From: Faecalibacter macacae
GTDB taxonomy: Bacteria > Bacteroidota > Bacteroidia > Flavobacteriales > Weeksellaceae
DNA length: 42,703 nt
Assembly (NCBI RefSeq): GCF_003687725.1
Contig: NZ_RDOJ01000022.1
Location: 1 to 42,703, forward strand
Reading direction: 5' to 3'
The position numbers and the translations under genes were made by a program. Shown one piece after another: positions 471-6,650 of this stretch (positions within the stretch are counted from its first letter, which is position 1; each line of letters opens with the position of its first letter). The notes beneath the pieces were generated by a model. The model saw nothing but the letters and a program-made list of their open reading frames with translations. It did not search any database and was not told the origin of the DNA.

Positions 471-830
471 ATGAATCATAATTACTCTCCTGGTTTACAT
501 CAATTATTGACTTTAAAAGTTGATGATGTAAGCTTATTAACTTCATTAGAGAGTTTTCTTGCCTTTTCAGAAGAATTAATTCGATTAGAGGATTTAAAAA
601 TTGTAGGAATTTCGTCACATCAATTCGATACCGATGGTTTTACTGCTGCGATTTGCTTAATGGAATCACATATTTGCATCCATACATGGCCAGAATTTAA
701 TCAATTAACTTTGGATATATACTTATGTAATTATTTAAAAGATAATTCGGATAAAGTACTTAAAATTGGTTATGCCTTCAAAGAATATTTTAAAGCAGAT
801 GTTTTAAATGAAACTTTGGTTAATCGTTAA
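471..830 (+). CDS. speD: S-adenosylmethionine decarboxylase proenzyme
   Basis: Decarboxylates S-adenosylmethionine to give the aminopropyl donor used in polyamine synthesis. The 119-residue length fits the small prokaryotic class 1B enzymes. Residues 64-75 read MESHICIHTWPE. Glu65-Ser66 is the expected self-cleavage site that creates the pyruvoyl cofactor, His67 follows, and Cys86 in DIYLCN matches the catalytic cysteine of the family. The start at 471 lies just after a promoter-like word. It is the first gene of a five-gene run; the next gene begins 3 nt after its stop, and a membrane aminopropyltransferase lies three genes on, so donor synthesis and use are encoded together. No ornithine or arginine decarboxylase is in the window, so the amine acceptor is not revealed. 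Confidence 0.93.
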   Translation: MNHNYSPGLHQLLTLKVDDVSLLTSLESFLAFSEELIRLEDLKIVGISSHQFDTDGFTAAICLMESHICIHTWPEFNQLTLDIYLCNYLKDNSDKVLKIGYAFKEYFKADVLNETLVNR

Positions 831-833
831 GCT

Positions 834-2243
834 ATGAATATAGTTTGTCCGAATTGTAAGCATGATCAACAGTTTAGTGTAGAAGTAAAAGACTACAAAG
901 GTTATGTTTGCCCTTCTTGTCATAGATATTATAAAACTGATTATAAAGGTTTAATTCTTGATTCGGATTTCACGTTTGAAAAGAAATTCTCGGATTTATC
1001 TAAAAATGTAGTTACAGAATTAAACGAAAAAATACGTGTAAAGAATAAAACGTACAGAATTATTACGATAATAGAACGTAGAGATGATTCTGGTACAATA
1101 CATTTTGAGTATGTTGGTTTATCTGATAATGACGAAGATATTTATTTTTCTCATGCCTATGATTATTTTAGTCAGTTACAATTAATTGAAGAAAAAGATT
1201 TAGAAATTATAGACGAGAACACCGTAAAATTTTCGAGACATAAATATAAGTTAGAATATATTGATCAATGTAAAGTAGAAAATGCAGTCGGTTTTGTATT
1301 TGAAGATTTAACTGGAGCAACTACAAATAATACATATATCCATTCCTATAACGATAATAAATTTATTTCGGAAGAACATATTGATGGAAATAAAGAATAT
1401 TATTCGGGTGCTTATTTATCTATTGATCAATTTCGTTTATTTTTCCAAAATGCAAAATCTGTTAGTTATATAGGAACAGAAGCTCAGTTACTATTTTTTA
1501 AATTATTTGGGCTCGTTGCAATTGTATTAGTTTCACTTTTCATGTTAGTTAATTTTAATAATTTACGAAAACAAAAAGTGAGTTTTGACGAGAAATTTAC
1601 TTCTGCAGAAACAACAAATCAATTTATTGGACAAAGTTTTTCGCTTGGAGGAACTACTAAAAAGTTAGTTTTTGATGGTATTTCTGAAACTAATAACAAA
1701 GAATTAAATCTTTGGGTAAAGTTGGTAAACGAGAAAACTAACGAGGTTAGAGAATCTAAAATGTTAGTTCATTATGATAACAACATTAATTATGCGAGTG
1801 GTGTAACGGTCGAATTTTGTAAAATTCCTGCCGGAACGTATCACATGGTTTTCGAAACAAGTTCTAATTTACAAGAGCCAATAAATTATGATATTGATTA
1901 TCGATTGGTGCATGGAGATATTAACTATTTTTCATTAATTATAGCTTTAGGGATTTTGTTTTTTGCAGGATATCTAATTTACAATAACAAATTTTTAAAT
2001 GATGGATCTCCTTTTTACAGTAATTTGACTCACGTTTCTTACGACGATATTTTAAAGTTATTTAATTTAAAATACATCATTATCGGAGGCTTATTAATTT
2101 TTACTGCTTATACCGTTTACAGCAATTACTTGGAAGAATGTACTACTTCAACCTCACTTAATTATTTAGAAGATCATACATATACAGGATCACGTACGCA
2201 TTATTACAGAAGTTATAGTTCGGATGGATCAGGACACAAATAA
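834..2243 (+). CDS. zinc-ribbon DUF4178 membrane protein
   Basis: A 469-residue protein of unknown biochemical role. The N-terminus has two CPxC pairs (Cys5/Cys8 and Cys26/Cys29), a zinc-ribbon knuckle. It is followed by a beta-rich region at about 50-200 resembling DUF4178. A hydrophobic segment at about 217-241 precedes an extracytoplasmic-looking beta domain at about 255-360. Two further membrane helices lie near 365-385 and 412-432, and the Ser/Thr/Tyr-rich tail is polar. It sits between speD and a DUF350 gene, with 3-nt and 12-nt gaps, so translation is probably linked. Families of this kind recur beside DUF350 and polyamine enzymes, which suggests a structural or regulatory part in a membrane polyamine system; that is inference. 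The DUF4178 assignment is from pattern memory. Confidence 0.72.
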   Translation: MNIVCPNCKHDQQFSVEVKDYKGYVCPSCHRYYKTDYKGLILDSDFTFEKKFSDLSKNVVTELNEKIRVKNKTYRIITIIERRDDSGTIHFEYVGLSDNDEDIYFSHAYDYFSQLQLIEEKDLEIIDENTVKFSRHKYKLEYIDQCKVENAVGFVFEDLTGATTNNTYIHSYNDNKFISEEHIDGNKEYYSGAYLSIDQFRLFFQNAKSVSYIGTEAQLLFFKLFGLVAIVLVSLFMLVNFNNLRKQKVSFDEKFTSAETTNQFIGQSFSLGGTTKKLVFDGISETNNKELNLWVKLVNEKTNEVRESKMLVHYDNNINYASGVTVEFCKIPAGTYHMVFETSSNLQEPINYDIDYRLVHGDINYFSLIIALGILFFAGYLIYNNKFLNDGSPFYSNLTHVSYDDILKLFNLKYIIIGGLLIFTAYTVYSNYLEECTTSTSLNYLEDHTYTGSRTHYYRSYSSDGSGHK

Positions 2244-2255
2244 AAATCAAATACT

Positions 2256-2474
2256 ATGGAATTAGAATTATTTTATAAAGGCATTATTGCGTCAGTTATT
2301 TATTCAATTATCGGAGTTACAGTTTTATTAGTAGCTTATTGGATCATGGAACGATTAACGCCAGAGAAATCTTGGAAAGAAATTGTAGAAAATAAAAACA
2401 TGGCTTTGGCAATCGTTTTTGGAGCTATGATTTTAGGAATTTCTATTATTATTGCAGCCGCCATTCATGGATAA
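2256..2474 (+). CDS. DUF350 small membrane protein
   Basis: A 72-residue protein with two membrane helices (about 8-30 and 47-70) joined by a short charged loop ending KSWKEIVENKN. The second helix, ALAIVFGAMILGISIIIAAAI, carries the Gly/Ala-rich signature of DUF350, the family of E. coli YjfL. This copy has one hairpin, while many DUF350 proteins have two. The downstream gene's ATG (2467) overlaps its last codons, so the two are probably translationally coupled. In E. coli, yjfL lies near yjfC, a glutathionylspermidine synthase homologue, so a polyamine link for DUF350 is seen elsewhere too. The molecular function is unknown. Confidence 0.8.
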   Translation: MELELFYKGIIASVIYSIIGVTVLLVAYWIMERLTPEKSWKEIVENKNMALAIVFGAMILGISIIIAAAIHG

Positions 2475-3993
2475 AAAAATAACGAAACGAAAACATTTCG
2501 AAATATTTCTCCTTGTTGCTGTTTTTATCATTTCGACTTGTGGACTGATTTACGAATTAGTCGCAGGTGCGTTGGCAAGTTATTTATTAGGAGATTCGGT
2601 TCGTCAGTTTTCGTTTGTCATTGGAATTTATCTTTTCTCGATGGGTGTTGGTTCATATTTAGCCAAATTCATCAAGAAAAATTTATTTGATCGTTTCATC
2701 GAAATCGAATTATTAATCGGAATTATAGGTGGTTCGAGTGCGGTAATTTTGTTCCTACTTTTTCAGCATGTCGAACATTTTCAGTTTTTACTTTACTTTT
2801 TTGTTTTCTTAACAGGATGTTTAGCTGGAATGGAAATTCCTTTGTTAATGAGTATTTTAAAGGATCGAGTTGAATTTCGCGAATTAGTTTCTAATGTTTT
2901 TACCTTCGATTATATCGGTGCTCTAATCGCATCCGTACTGTTTCCTATTTTGCTTTTGCCAAAATTAGGAGTAATGGGAACATCTTTGTTTTTCGGAATT
3001 ATAAATACTTTGGTCGGAATTGTTTTATGTTTTTATTTGAAAGATGATTTAGTAAAACCAAAACAACTGAAATTAAAATCTTTTGGAAGTTTATTGATTT
3101 TAATTGTTCTTTTGATTTATTCGAATGATATTTTAAAGTTTTCAGAAAATCAATTGTATGCCAATCGTATCATTTATGAACATTCTACAACGTATCAACG
3201 CATCGTTTTAACTGAAAATAAAGGTAATTATCAACTGTTTTTGAATAATAATTTACAGTTTAATACAAAAGACGAATACCGTTACCACGAAGTTTTAGTT
3301 CATCCAGCAATGGCTGCAGCAAAAAATCCGGAGCGTATTTTAATTTTAGGTGGAGGCGATGGTTTGGCTGCGCGAGAAGTTTACAAATATCCTAATGTAA
3401 AAGAAATTACATTGGTTGATTTGGATGAAGGAATGACGAATCTTTTTAAAACCAATGAAATTTTAGTCGATTACAATAAGAACTCCTTAAACGATCCACG
3501 CACAACAATTATCAATACCGATGCATTTATCTGGATTAAAAATAATACCAAACAGTTTGATGTGATGATAATCGATTTTCCAGATCCTTCTAATTATAGT
3601 TTAGGAAAATTATATACAACGACTTTTTATCGTAGTTTGATGCAAAGTTTAGATTCACAAGCGGTAGTTTCTGTGCAAACAACTTCACCTTATTTTGCTC
3701 CAAAATCTTTTTGGTGTGTGAATGAAACGATAGGTTCAATCTACCCAAATAATCAGGCATATCATACGTATGTTCCATCTTTTGGTGAGTGGGGATTTAC
3801 TTTATTTTCGTCAGAAATGAAGATTAACCTGAATCGAGTAGTAAATAAAGTTGATGGATTGAAATATTACGATTACGATTTTAAAAAATTAACTGATTTT
3901 CCTGAAGATATTGCACCACGAGAAGTTGAAATTAACCGATTAGATAATCAAATTTTAGTACGTTATTTTGATGAAGAATGGAGTAAAATCTAA
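2467..3993 (+). CDS. membrane-fused spermidine synthase-like aminopropyltransferase
   Basis: Predicted to transfer an aminopropyl group from decarboxylated SAM to an amine acceptor. I chose ATG 2467 (508 residues), which overlaps the DUF350 stop, over an in-frame TTG at 2452. Residues 10-220 contain about seven membrane helices; the soluble enzyme domain follows. That domain has YHE at 273-275, the nucleotide loop GGGDG at 295-299, VDLD at 317-320, and IIDFPDPSN with Asp370 and Asp373 in place of the catalytic DxxDP of SpeE. The Gly-Pro normally after DxxDP is Ser-Asn, a change I associate with membrane-fused family members, so the acceptor may not be free putrescine. It is co-encoded with speD, DUF4178 and DUF350. 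Confidence 0.88.
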   Translation: MDKKITKRKHFEIFLLVAVFIISTCGLIYELVAGALASYLLGDSVRQFSFVIGIYLFSMGVGSYLAKFIKKNLFDRFIEIELLIGIIGGSSAVILFLLFQHVEHFQFLLYFFVFLTGCLAGMEIPLLMSILKDRVEFRELVSNVFTFDYIGALIASVLFPILLLPKLGVMGTSLFFGIINTLVGIVLCFYLKDDLVKPKQLKLKSFGSLLILIVLLIYSNDILKFSENQLYANRIIYEHSTTYQRIVLTENKGNYQLFLNNNLQFNTKDEYRYHEVLVHPAMAAAKNPERILILGGGDGLAAREVYKYPNVKEITLVDLDEGMTNLFKTNEILVDYNKNSLNDPRTTIINTDAFIWIKNNTKQFDVMIIDFPDPSNYSLGKLYTTTFYRSLMQSLDSQAVVSVQTTSPYFAPKSFWCVNETIGSIYPNNQAYHTYVPSFGEWGFTLFSSEMKINLNRVVNKVDGLKYYDYDFKKLTDFPEDIAPREVEINRLDNQILVRYFDEEWSKI

Positions 3994-5590
3994 TTGGTCG
4001 CGCCGAGATTTTATCAAACAATCGGCACTATTTACAATCGGTTTAACTTTTTTAAATGCGTGTAAAAAGAAAGGAAATGATTTGTTTTTGAAATTAACAG
4101 GAACGAATCATATTTTAGGACATCGTCTTCGTTTTCCTAATTTTCCTAAATCAACATCAGAAATAGAAATTCCGGTTCTAATCATTGGTGGTGGAATAAC
4201 TGGATTATCTGCTGCTCGCCAATTTACTAAAAAAGGTTTCAATGATTTTTTGTTACTTGAATTAGAAGATCAAGTTGGAGGAAATTCAACAGGTGGAGAA
4301 AATAAATATGCTAAATTTCCGTTGGGTGCACATTATTTACCAATTCCGAATGCATCGAATCATGAATTGTTAGAATTTTTGAAAGAAGAAAAAATAATTC
4401 GAGATTTTGACGAAAACAATCAACCTATTTTTGATGAAGAACAATTAACCTACGCGCCTCACGAACGTCTTTTTATTAAAAATTATTGGCAAGAAGGATT
4501 GATTCCTCGTTATGGATTAAATCAAAAGGAGAAAGATGAATTTGATTTATTTTTAAAAAAAATGAATGATTTTACCTTTTTAAAAGGAGAAGATGATTTA
4601 TATATTTTTGATATTCCTTTGAGAAATGCTTCGAAGCAACATTCATTTTTTGGATTGAATCATTTAACGATGGAAGAATGGTTACAACAAGAACAATTCA
4701 CTTCAAAAAATCTTTTTACATACGTGAATTATTGTTGTCGTGATGATTACGGGACAGGAATTAAACAAACTTCGGCTTTTGCTGGAATTCATTATTTCGC
4801 AGCCAGAAAACATGATTTTAAAGCTTATGATGGTTTAGTTTTGACGTGGCAAGAAGGTAATCAACGTTTAGCTAATCATCTCAAAAAATATGTGGATGGT
4901 AAAGTTTTAAACAATCATCTCGTTTATCAAATCAATTCTAATTCTGATGGAGTAGAAGTGCTAGTTTTTGATGAAAAGAATAATCAATCCAAAATAATAA
5001 AGGCAAAAATAGTCGTGAATTGTGCGCCTCAATTTGTTAATCAATATTTATTACCTGAACGTAAAAAAGCGACAAAATCTTTTAATTATGCGCCTTGGAT
5101 TATCGCAACAATTGTTTTGAAGCGTTTTCCTCTCGCAGACGGAGCTCCATTGGCTTGGGATAATGTGATACATAATGGAACAGGTTTAGGTTATATTTAT
5201 GCACAACATCAATCGTTAGAACAATTTAAATCTCCTTTTGTAATTACCTATTTTCATAGTTTGGAAGGCGAAGATTTGAATCAATTAAGACGTAAAATGT
5301 ATGATATGAAAGATGAAGATTGGAAAAAAATTATCATCGAAGATTTATCAAAAGCGCATTACGAGATAGAGGAACATATTGAATCCATCGAAATCTATCG
5401 TCGTGGGCATGGAATGATTAGTCCAACAAAGGGATTTTTATTCTCAAAAGAAAAATCTGATTTAAAGAAAAACATCAACAATCAAATTTTCTTTGCACAT
5501 TCAGATCTAAGTGGTATCTCGATTTTTGAAGAAGCTTTTTATCAAGGTTTGGATACTGCTGATGAAGTGTTGGAAATTTTCTATAAATAA
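3971..5590 (+). CDS. Tat-exported FAD-dependent amine oxidase-like lipoprotein
   Basis: A 539-residue flavoprotein. The N-terminus has a twin-arginine motif SRRDFIK (10-16), a hydrophobic stretch and a lipobox LNAC ending at Cys31, so it is expected to be exported folded with FAD and lipid-anchored. A dinucleotide-binding motif IIGGGITGLSAA begins near residue 71 and an acidic residue ends the second strand, as in monoamine oxidase and phytoene desaturase relatives. ATG 3971 overlaps the 3' end of the aminopropyltransferase gene; a TTG sits one codon upstream. The tight coupling suggests it oxidises a polyamine-derived product outside the cytoplasm, but substrate and direction are not shown by sequence. 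Confidence 0.82.
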   Translation: MKNGVKSNWSRRDFIKQSALFTIGLTFLNACKKKGNDLFLKLTGTNHILGHRLRFPNFPKSTSEIEIPVLIIGGGITGLSAARQFTKKGFNDFLLLELEDQVGGNSTGGENKYAKFPLGAHYLPIPNASNHELLEFLKEEKIIRDFDENNQPIFDEEQLTYAPHERLFIKNYWQEGLIPRYGLNQKEKDEFDLFLKKMNDFTFLKGEDDLYIFDIPLRNASKQHSFFGLNHLTMEEWLQQEQFTSKNLFTYVNYCCRDDYGTGIKQTSAFAGIHYFAARKHDFKAYDGLVLTWQEGNQRLANHLKKYVDGKVLNNHLVYQINSNSDGVEVLVFDEKNNQSKIIKAKIVVNCAPQFVNQYLLPERKKATKSFNYAPWIIATIVLKRFPLADGAPLAWDNVIHNGTGLGYIYAQHQSLEQFKSPFVITYFHSLEGEDLNQLRRKMYDMKDEDWKKIIIEDLSKAHYEIEEHIESIEIYRRGHGMISPTKGFLFSKEKSDLKKNINNQIFFAHSDLSGISIFEEAFYQGLDTADEVLEIFYK

Positions 5591-5651: not shown

Positions 5652-6650
5652 ATGAAATTAAGATTCACTTGTTTTTTTTATATTTTCTTTTTTATGATTC
5701 TTAACGCTCAGCCTACTGAATTAATTGGTAAATGGATATTAGTTAGGACATTAAATAATAACAACACTCGTTTAGATATAAATAATTCTGATTACAGTAA
5801 AAAAATGATTTATCAAATTGATAAAAATTCTTTTAAAATTAATGGACAATTATTTAAACCTAAATTTAAGGAAAATATTATAAATTTATCTGATAAGAAT
5901 TATCCTGAATTCACTTATACTATTAAAGAAAATTATCTTATTACAAAAGAAATCAAAGGTCATACGACTAATTATTTTTTAAAAATTGATGATTTTATTA
6001 AAAGATTTCCCGAATTTTCTCTTAAAGAAATTGACTATAATGATAGAAAGGTTTATTTAGATAATGGAATTTCAGCTTACGATTTTAATCATGATCTAAC
6101 TTATGATTTTTTTATTTTATTAAATGGTAATTCTAATTCAGATAAGAGAAATATTATCAATCCGGATAGTTTGCCATTACAATTTGAGTATATTTTGACT
6201 GTCGATAATAAAATTAAAGATTTTAAGATCATAAATTCTGAAAATAATTTAGCTGATAATGATTATATCGAAAGATTTAAAAAAGCTTCAAAATATTTCA
6301 AAAATACAACAGATAAAGATGTTTTGTTACGTTATACAGGCGTATCTATTACTTCATATCCAGAATTAACTAATAAAGATGAGAAAAGATTGTTTGAGAT
6401 AAGTGCTCAAATAGATCGTTATTATTATAAAAATGAATTTATTAATATAATTGATTTGTATGATGAGTTTACAAAATTAAAGATTAAGCCTAATCGTTTT
6501 AATAAATTTAAAGACGATAATTACATAAGATTAGGTGTGTCTTTTTTAGCTCAAAATAGAATAGATGAAGCTTGTATTTCTTTTAAAAATGTAGGTGATA
6601 TAACAGATTTTAGAGTTCGAAATTATTTGTTAGATTTTTGTCAAAAATGA
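5652..6650 (+). CDS. secreted hypothetical protein
   Basis: A 332-residue protein I do not recognise. The first ~19 residues form a signal peptide ending at LNAQ. The next segment, ELIGKWILVRT, with a repeated beta pattern to about residue 115, looks lipocalin-like. The middle (120-220) is rich in Asn, Asp and Lys. The last ~100 residues are helical with a TPR-like feel (RLGVSFLAQNRIDEACISF). It is likely periplasmic or surface exposed. It stands apart from the polyamine operon, with 61 nt between them and its own promoter-like word, and ends at a strong terminator. Base composition is even more AT-rich than its neighbours. Confidence 0.65.
   Translation: MKLRFTCFFYIFFFMILNAQPTELIGKWILVRTLNNNNTRLDINNSDYSKKMIYQIDKNSFKINGQLFKPKFKENIINLSDKNYPEFTYTIKENYLITKEIKGHTTNYFLKIDDFIKRFPEFSLKEIDYNDRKVYLDNGISAYDFNHDLTYDFFILLNGNSNSDKRNIINPDSLPLQFEYILTVDNKIKDFKIINSENNLADNDYIERFKKASKYFKNTTDKDVLLRYTGVSITSYPELTNKDEKRLFEISAQIDRYYYKNEFINIIDLYDEFTKLKIKPNRFNKFKDDNYIRLGVSFLAQNRIDEACISFKNVGDITDFRVRNYLLDFCQK

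Follow-up and report, generated by a model that had tools for sequence, protein, structure and literature searches.

Gene clusters that pair a membrane-fused aminopropyltransferase with small membrane proteins have been described in part, and the five-gene locus that we analyze here is a variant of this kind, in which a lysine-ended protein tail gives the orphan enzyme a concrete candidate acceptor. The locus lies near the start of a 42,703-nucleotide contig of Faecalibacter macacae (NZ_RDOJ01000022.1; hereafter the window, which is that whole contig) and encodes, on the forward (+) strand, an S-adenosylmethionine decarboxylase (AdoMetDC; SpeD), a DUF4178-type membrane protein, a DUF350 protein, a seven-transmembrane (7TM) domain fused to a SpeE-like aminopropyltransferase, and an exported flavoprotein. 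Clusters of AdoMetDC, a fusion of a major facilitator superfamily (MFS) domain with spermidine synthase (SpdSyn), and DUF350 were reportedly described by Li et al. (Biochem J, 2019), and these resemble the window in combining speD, a membrane-fused SpeE and DUF350. The fused enzymes are said to have failed to complement an E. coli speE mutant, with spermidine absent and a non-putrescine acceptor proposed; the abstract reportedly leaves the acceptor unnamed and mentions neither a tail protein nor a flavoprotein. The CesT/Tir-PspA operon, as set out in the accessible text of Ravi et al. (2024; PMC11237479), contains a 7TM-spermine synthase, DUF350, the Ctha_1186 lipoprotein and DUF4178, and shares with the window the 7TM-fused SpeE, DUF350 and DUF4178, the last falling below the Pfam cut-off in the window. 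Unlike that operon, the window has a short DUF350, a long three-helix DUF4178 protein with a tail, and a dedicated exported flavoprotein. In a close relative that carries the same five genes (locus L014), the surroundings of the operon matched neither PspA nor CesT; in the window, the contig starts 471 bases ahead of speD and the upstream side of the operon is out of view. The accessible text of Ravi et al., the only paper in the literature searched that contains the term DUF4178, mentions neither a tail nor a terminal lysine, and we found no statement of a lysine-ended tail in the literature searched, most subscription papers lying outside its reach; membrane fusion was likewise not found in the accessible portions of PMC11107197 or PMC10407285.

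We propose, with a probability of about 0.55, that the C-terminal lysine of a membrane-anchored tail is the aminopropyl acceptor, and that the operon serves to modify a protein tail. SpeD would make decarboxylated S-adenosylmethionine (dcSAM), and the 7TM-fused aminopropyltransferase would transfer the aminopropyl group to the side-chain amine of the tail's C-terminal lysine. The acceptor tail would be membrane-anchored and probably extracytoplasmic, formed by the end of the DUF4178 protein in the window and, in most relatives, by a small protein of its own. With four methylenes and an amine, the lysine side chain resembles putrescine; placed at the end of a chain, it might fit into the acceptor pocket to yield a spermidine-like C-terminus, which the exported flavoprotein might then oxidize, trim or reverse. 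Polyamine-type groups occur on lysine side chains in silaffins and in deoxyhypusine; these belong to other organisms and enzymes and are not known to involve a C-terminal membrane tail.

In the window, the DUF4178-type protein (834..2243, +) comprises, in order, a zinc ribbon, a DUF4178-like domain, a helix, a predicted exported domain, a second helix, a short loop, a third helix and the tail, with hydrophobic segments at residues 221-239, 365-383 and 406-424. A preliminary description of this DNA had called it a zinc-ribbon DUF4178-type protein; matches to both families are present, but both are sub-threshold, and DUF4178 itself scores 18.4 bits against a Pfam cut-off of 25. In a Novosphingobium relative, the gene in this slot bears the name DUF4178 in its record. 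The protein ends in THYYRSYSSDGSGHK, and its last 36 residues (2133..2240, +; ending SSDGSGHK) form the proposed acceptor tail, closed by the His-Lys (HK) codons at 2235..2240 (+) and the stop at 2241-2243. The three segments would place this tail outside. DUF4178 proteins with their own third segment and an HK end were found in the window and in L014, L056, L082 and L083. In most relatives, a small one-helix open reading frame (ORF) ending in His-Lys lies instead between the DUF4178-type gene (DUF4178L in our labels) and DUF350, and we equate the window tail with these separate tails because position, third helix and HK end agree, rather than from a profile match.

The lysine end recurs throughout the relatives. 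Our tail count covers 117 SpeE rows, 115 of them distinct (L084 duplicates L059, and L111 duplicates L068), and DUF4178L lies upstream in 98 of the 117. A lysine-ended tail is present in all 96 distinct rows of this DUF4178L type: 60 with a single candidate, 15 with several, and 21 in which no candidate passed our filter. Before duplicates were dropped, every one of the 61 tails that were the only candidate ORF in the gap ended in lysine (59 HK, 2 GK), and where the gap held multiple candidates, one ended HK in 16/16 loci. The 21 rows without a filtered gap ORF consist of five HK-ended DUF4178 proteins and 16 lysine-ended tails picked by eye among several frames, one of which (L079) precedes its long DUF4178L match. 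Conservation is concentrated at the end itself: histidine occupies position -2 in 59/61 single-candidate tails and tyrosine position -3 in 44/61, and further upstream no residue reaches half. The N-terminal flank of the helix is the more positive one in 43 of the 61 separate tails, less positive in 6 and equal in 12, so that most of these tails too would be placed outside. Five acidobacterial tails (L144, L145, L146, L156 and L158) end GGK rather than HK with the same layout, and acidobacterial L130 ends HK.

Most other protein families of these operons seldom end in lysine. The residue closes none of the SpeD (0/93), DUF350 (0/96), long DUF350 (0/12) or GSP_synth (0/3) proteins, and it ends only 1/117 SpeE, 5/95 flavoproteins and 4/61 DUF4178L proteins that stand beside a single separate tail.

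The 19 of 117 rows that lack an upstream DUF4178L extend the pattern to differently built carriers. A lipoprotein with lipoprotein-type signals, which we call lipoC, ends in lysine in 12/12 rows, typically as RSRSGGFGK; these are loci in the layout of Ravi et al. (2024), and lipoC corresponds to Ctha_1186 by position only. In L064 a DUF4178 protein ends RGFGK, in L076 a 78-residue protein ends RGGK, and no tail was assignable in L147 or at the second SpeE of L017. Where SpeE is accompanied by a GSP_synth-type ligase (L016, L077 and L078), the tail ends RSYGG in 3/3 loci. The E. coli proteins YgiB and YjfM also end GG, and adjoin YgiC and YjfC, which are annotated as peptide--spermidine ligases (Pederick et al. 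2023, as listed among the references of PMC12568646). These systems are like our proposal in placing a polyamine on peptides and in having an envelope partner (the DUF1190 proteins YgiB and YjfM) with a long C-terminal tail, and yjfMC resembles the window in having a DUF350 neighbor, with PspA adjacent as well; they combine an ATP-grasp ligase with glycine-ended tails, whereas the window locus has a lysine-ended tail and no GSP_synth ligase. A ligase able to attach an amine might work on a glycine-ended tail, and where the ligase is absent the tail would supply its own amine. A strict rule that a ligase means a GG end holds for 3/3 loci with SpeE and a ligase and for 2/2 in E. coli, but is broken by Bacteroidota ligase loci without SpeE, in which clear tails end GG, SS, GS or HA, others are less clear, and some loci have no clear tail. 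No lysine end was found among the clear lipoprotein-type partners of these Bacteroidota ligase loci.

We also considered homology between the carriers and rejected it, the tail and lipoC profiles having no mutual match. The lipoC proteins match a YgiB/YjfM set (8/10 of whose rows were taken in as ligase neighbors) over the signal peptide only and in shallow alignments, and by eye both contain an SFW...Y stretch; a distant relation of lipoC and YgiB/YjfM-type partners is possible. In the F. macacae genome itself, the single PF03738 (GSP_synth) match lies away from the window locus, on contig C13, where the ligase (C13:40975-42075; L168) has an exported partner ending in RGGFGKSAQSKTVSS (final residues TVSS). 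The flavoprotein-type and PspA-type modules occur together on one contig in L017 (5921-17534), in opposite orientation and each with its own fused SpeE.

These observations bear on two alternative readings. In the first, which we consider unlikely, a small molecule or a membrane lipid amine is aminopropylated, and the tail protein is structural or regulatory, perhaps a pseudo-substrate that plugs the acceptor pocket. The fused enzyme is membrane-bound, the preliminary description had favored a membrane-bound acceptor or a lipid-linked amine, and the accessible text of Ravi et al. (2024; PMC11237479) leaves "aminopropylation of other substrates" possible. A strict last residue that recurs in differently built carriers, however, looks more like a substrate end, and no lipid enzyme was recognized among the recurrent neighbors, one of which (MP, below) nonetheless has no family match. 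With no recognizable support in gene content, we set the lipid aside as first choice and regard the lysine-ended protein tail as the better candidate. The second alternative is more doubtful still: the lysine might be of the Braun-lipoprotein type, anchored to peptidoglycan through its amine by an L,D-transpeptidase, in which case the aminopropyltransferase would either act elsewhere or cap that amine. Lpp ends in a lysine that is joined to peptidoglycan, and the tails are likewise membrane-anchored and predicted to be outside; this scheme leaves unexplained both the link to an aminopropyltransferase and the SYGG ends beside ATP-grasp ligases.

The five-gene set is a unit. All five ORFs are present where the preliminary description placed them, and their tight arrangement is borne out by the sequence: spacings of 3 nt and 12 nt are followed by overlaps of 8 nt and 23 nt. 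Beyond the genes treated elsewhere in this account, the set includes a short two-helix DUF350 (YjfL-like) membrane protein (2256..2474, +; PF03994, 56.2 bits against a cut-off of 26). In a sample of 80 loci (L082-L161), the best 80 of 570 relatives and therefore leaning toward the window type, 62 have every one of the five gene kinds no more than 8 kb from SpeE, on either strand. By kind, DUF4178L is found in 78/80, the flavoprotein in 76, DUF350 in 75, speD in 67, and a sixth gene, MP, in 62, and several of the misses fall on short contigs. The loci come from Bacteroidota, Acidobacteria, Nitrospirae, Leptospiraceae, several proteobacterial groups, Obscuribacterales and others. In a survey of Bacteroidota genomes that scored at most three candidates per genome, full-length fused SpeE (>500 bits) occurs in 29/395, the window genome included, and flavoprotein orthologs (profile search, at least 599 bits) in 15/395; in 15/15 of the latter, a fused SpeE is no further than about 0.7 kb from the flavoprotein. 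The preliminary description had named a lack of co-conservation as grounds for refuting its proposal, and these neighborhoods show the opposite. Two further flavoprotein-profile matches, at 130 and 110 bits, are distant, and 14 of the 29 fused-SpeE genomes have no ortholog by profile search. The operon is patchy within the genus, with fused SpeE in 1 of 13 same-genus genomes (G005, 95 per cent). A weak match in G006 covers the transporter part only and is not a fused SpeE, and L021 was dropped for the same reason.

The fused SpeE (2467..3993, +; ATG at 2467, the listed ORF running from a TTG at 2452) has the seven hydrophobic segments first described. It belongs to the NCBIfam family NF002956 (PRK03612; 639.9 bits, cut-off 472), scores 131 bits against Spermine_synth (cut-off 22.9), and falls below the classical speE equivalog TIGR00417 (152.7 bits, cut-off 249.55); an MFS-like match on its membrane part (29.2 bits) is below the 33.4 cut-off. 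Its active site had been described as an altered DxxDP-SN motif. The loop does read so, but both aspartates are conserved, and GGGDG, D318, D320, D352, D370 and D373 are all kept in 49/49 aligned sequences (that of the window together with 48 from the 80 contig loci). Where the Bacillus subtilis and Thermotoga enzymes have a TYPSG stretch, the window has PSFGEWG, which may reflect a changed acceptor; the solved Pyrobaculum-type enzyme 7xif likewise reads PSFG. According to the accessible text of PMC10349129, spermidine synthases depend for dcSAM on the acidic residue in GxG(D/E)G, and the retention of this residue in GGGDG makes aminopropyl transfer likelier than methyl transfer. The same text describes NHMT, a fungal 7TM SpdS-like histidine methyltransferase that modifies the N-termini of proteins in the secretory pathway. 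NHMT resembles our proposal in combining a 7TM domain with an SpdS-like domain that works on the terminus of secreted proteins, and differs in transferring a methyl group, in acting on an N-terminal histidine, and in lacking the acidic dcSAM residue that the window SpeE keeps. Hydropathy and loop charge (K+R of 2.5, 0.2, 2.6, 0.8, 3.7, 0.8 and 2.4 per loop) suggest an inside N-terminus and an outside catalytic domain, because the charge alternates between loops.

SpeD (471..830, +), predicted to be a class 1b S-adenosylmethionine decarboxylase that supplies dcSAM, is the genome's only PF02675 match (69.7 bits; AdoMet_dc cut-off 25) and lies below the TIGR03330 equivalog cut-off (62 versus 75.65 bits). 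Aligned to the solved AdoMetDC structures 2iii and 1vr7, it keeps ESH, HTWPE and the cysteine position, which we take to be the Ser/His/Cys site of the class 1b enzymes. At what is presumably the usual catalytic cysteine, a pattern match over 96 sequences gave serine in 30, cysteine in 51 and no assignment in 15, and the window keeps cysteine. The preliminary description had noted that an ornithine or arginine decarboxylase is missing nearby. The five genes include neither, but another contig (C16; L197:1309-3689) carries an arginine-decarboxylase-like gene with a deoxyhypusine-synthase-like gene after it, likely forming a separate polyamine route. The genome also encodes lysA, and this gene, the pair on C16 and the separate ligase locus together indicate that free polyamines need not derive from the operon. 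Ordinary spermidine synthesis by the SpeD and fused SpeE pair, in keeping with intact catalytic residues (49/49) and with the NCBIfam family name of polyamine aminopropyltransferase, is very improbable, as had been judged from the start, given the sub-threshold TIGR00417 score, the altered TYPSG stretch (7xif notwithstanding), the gene pair on C16, and the reported failure of the fused enzymes of Li et al. to complement, with spermidine absent.

The flavoprotein (3971..5590, +; ATG at 3971, the listed ORF running from a TTG at 3968) is of the amine-oxidase family (PF01593, 45.4 bits against a cut-off of 19.8). It begins SRRDF with a cysteine following, in agreement with its first description as a flavoenzyme exported as a lipoprotein by twin-arginine translocation (Tat). 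Among PDB sequences, polyamine oxidases and monoamine oxidases match it best and LSD1 ranks lower, at weak scores and over the N-terminal flavin adenine dinucleotide-binding region. An RRx[FLM] motif is found near the start in 64/92 flavoproteins, and the 12 others listed have RK: those of L015, L052, L053 and L055 and of Chryseobacterium loci L089, L096, L098-L101, L103 and L104 begin SRKDF or SRKEF. Since these SRK starts replace the twin arginine, export may not be strictly through Tat. Oxidation of the product outside by this enzyme is plausible.

Several points weigh against lysine aminopropylation and temper our estimate. The profile of the separate tails has no significant match to the window's own tail, and purifying selection on the latter is suggestive only (nonsynonymous changes in 2 of 13 changed codons, versus 81 of 198 elsewhere; p = 0.083). 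Because the loci are related to one another, the tail counts do not amount to independent observations, and a number of tails were picked out by eye or through a lysine-end filter. Lysine ends are also frequent in some neighbors (17/75 MP, 4/7 CesT and 2/8 PspA proteins, and 3/14 DUF4178s proteins, one of them the L064 tail), and a conserved C-terminal lysine can serve other roles, as that of Lpp does. As for topology, the sixth SpeE loop, predicted to be outer, is two residues long with a K+R of 0.84, making the charge pattern unclean and the evidence weak; an outside catalytic domain would moreover call for a route for dcSAM across the membrane. A fuller version of the proposal, a previously unrecognized bacterial post-translational modification, is less likely and held only tentatively: the 7TM domain would pass dcSAM to an external aminopropyltransferase domain for aminopropylation of the lysine outside the cytoplasm, the flavoprotein would convert the spermidine-like product to a reactive aldehyde or remove it, the polyamine tail would become switchable or cross-linking, and the glycine-ended ligase tails would be an alternative route to the same kind of end.

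As a second set, a tblastn search of plasmids gave 13 records, of which nine were fetched (H6, H7, H9 and H12 were left out), and a lysine-ended tail is present in 8/8 assessable loci (Gemmatirosa, three Novosphingobium, Burkholderia stagnalis, Tritonibacter, Ensifer and Alteromonas). In L199, the tail is already annotated, as a hypothetical gene flanked by DUF4178 and DUF350; the tails of L198, L200, L202, L203 and L206 came from a lysine-end filter near SpeE, which biases the search toward the rule, that of L201 was found by eye, and that of L204 is a weak lipoC match (39.5 bits). A Rhodovulum plasmid (L205:6875-7654) carries a C-terminal fragment of a fused SpeE alone, and no operon partners were found. 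In phages we found no comparable fused SpeE, only two partial matches. The preliminary description had overlooked that the DUF4178 protein ends in GSGHK, and it had not noted MP, which is frequent in relatives and absent from the window. MP is a multi-helix protein of 342-456 residues in the members seen (e.g. L084:12060-13076), with conserved histidine motifs (DVxHV, HFxxQQYG, [SA]HGxPY and THYxLDGFIW; 12 aligned); six members scanned had no Pfam match, and no NCBIfam or PDB match was found where tried. The lipocalin-like ORF downstream in the window (5652-6650, below its family cut-off) was rejected as part of the operon, as L014 has a different gene at that place.

Membrane-fused aminopropyltransferases with AdoMetDC neighbors span several phyla, and the accessible text of Ravi et al. 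(2024) leaves their acceptor open. A partner protein from the same operon with a conserved terminal lysine offers a concrete and testable candidate acceptor. If the proposal is correct, polyamine chemistry on protein ends would be added to the bacterial envelope, SpeE-type and ligase-type clusters would share one logic, and the export of the flavoprotein would be explained.

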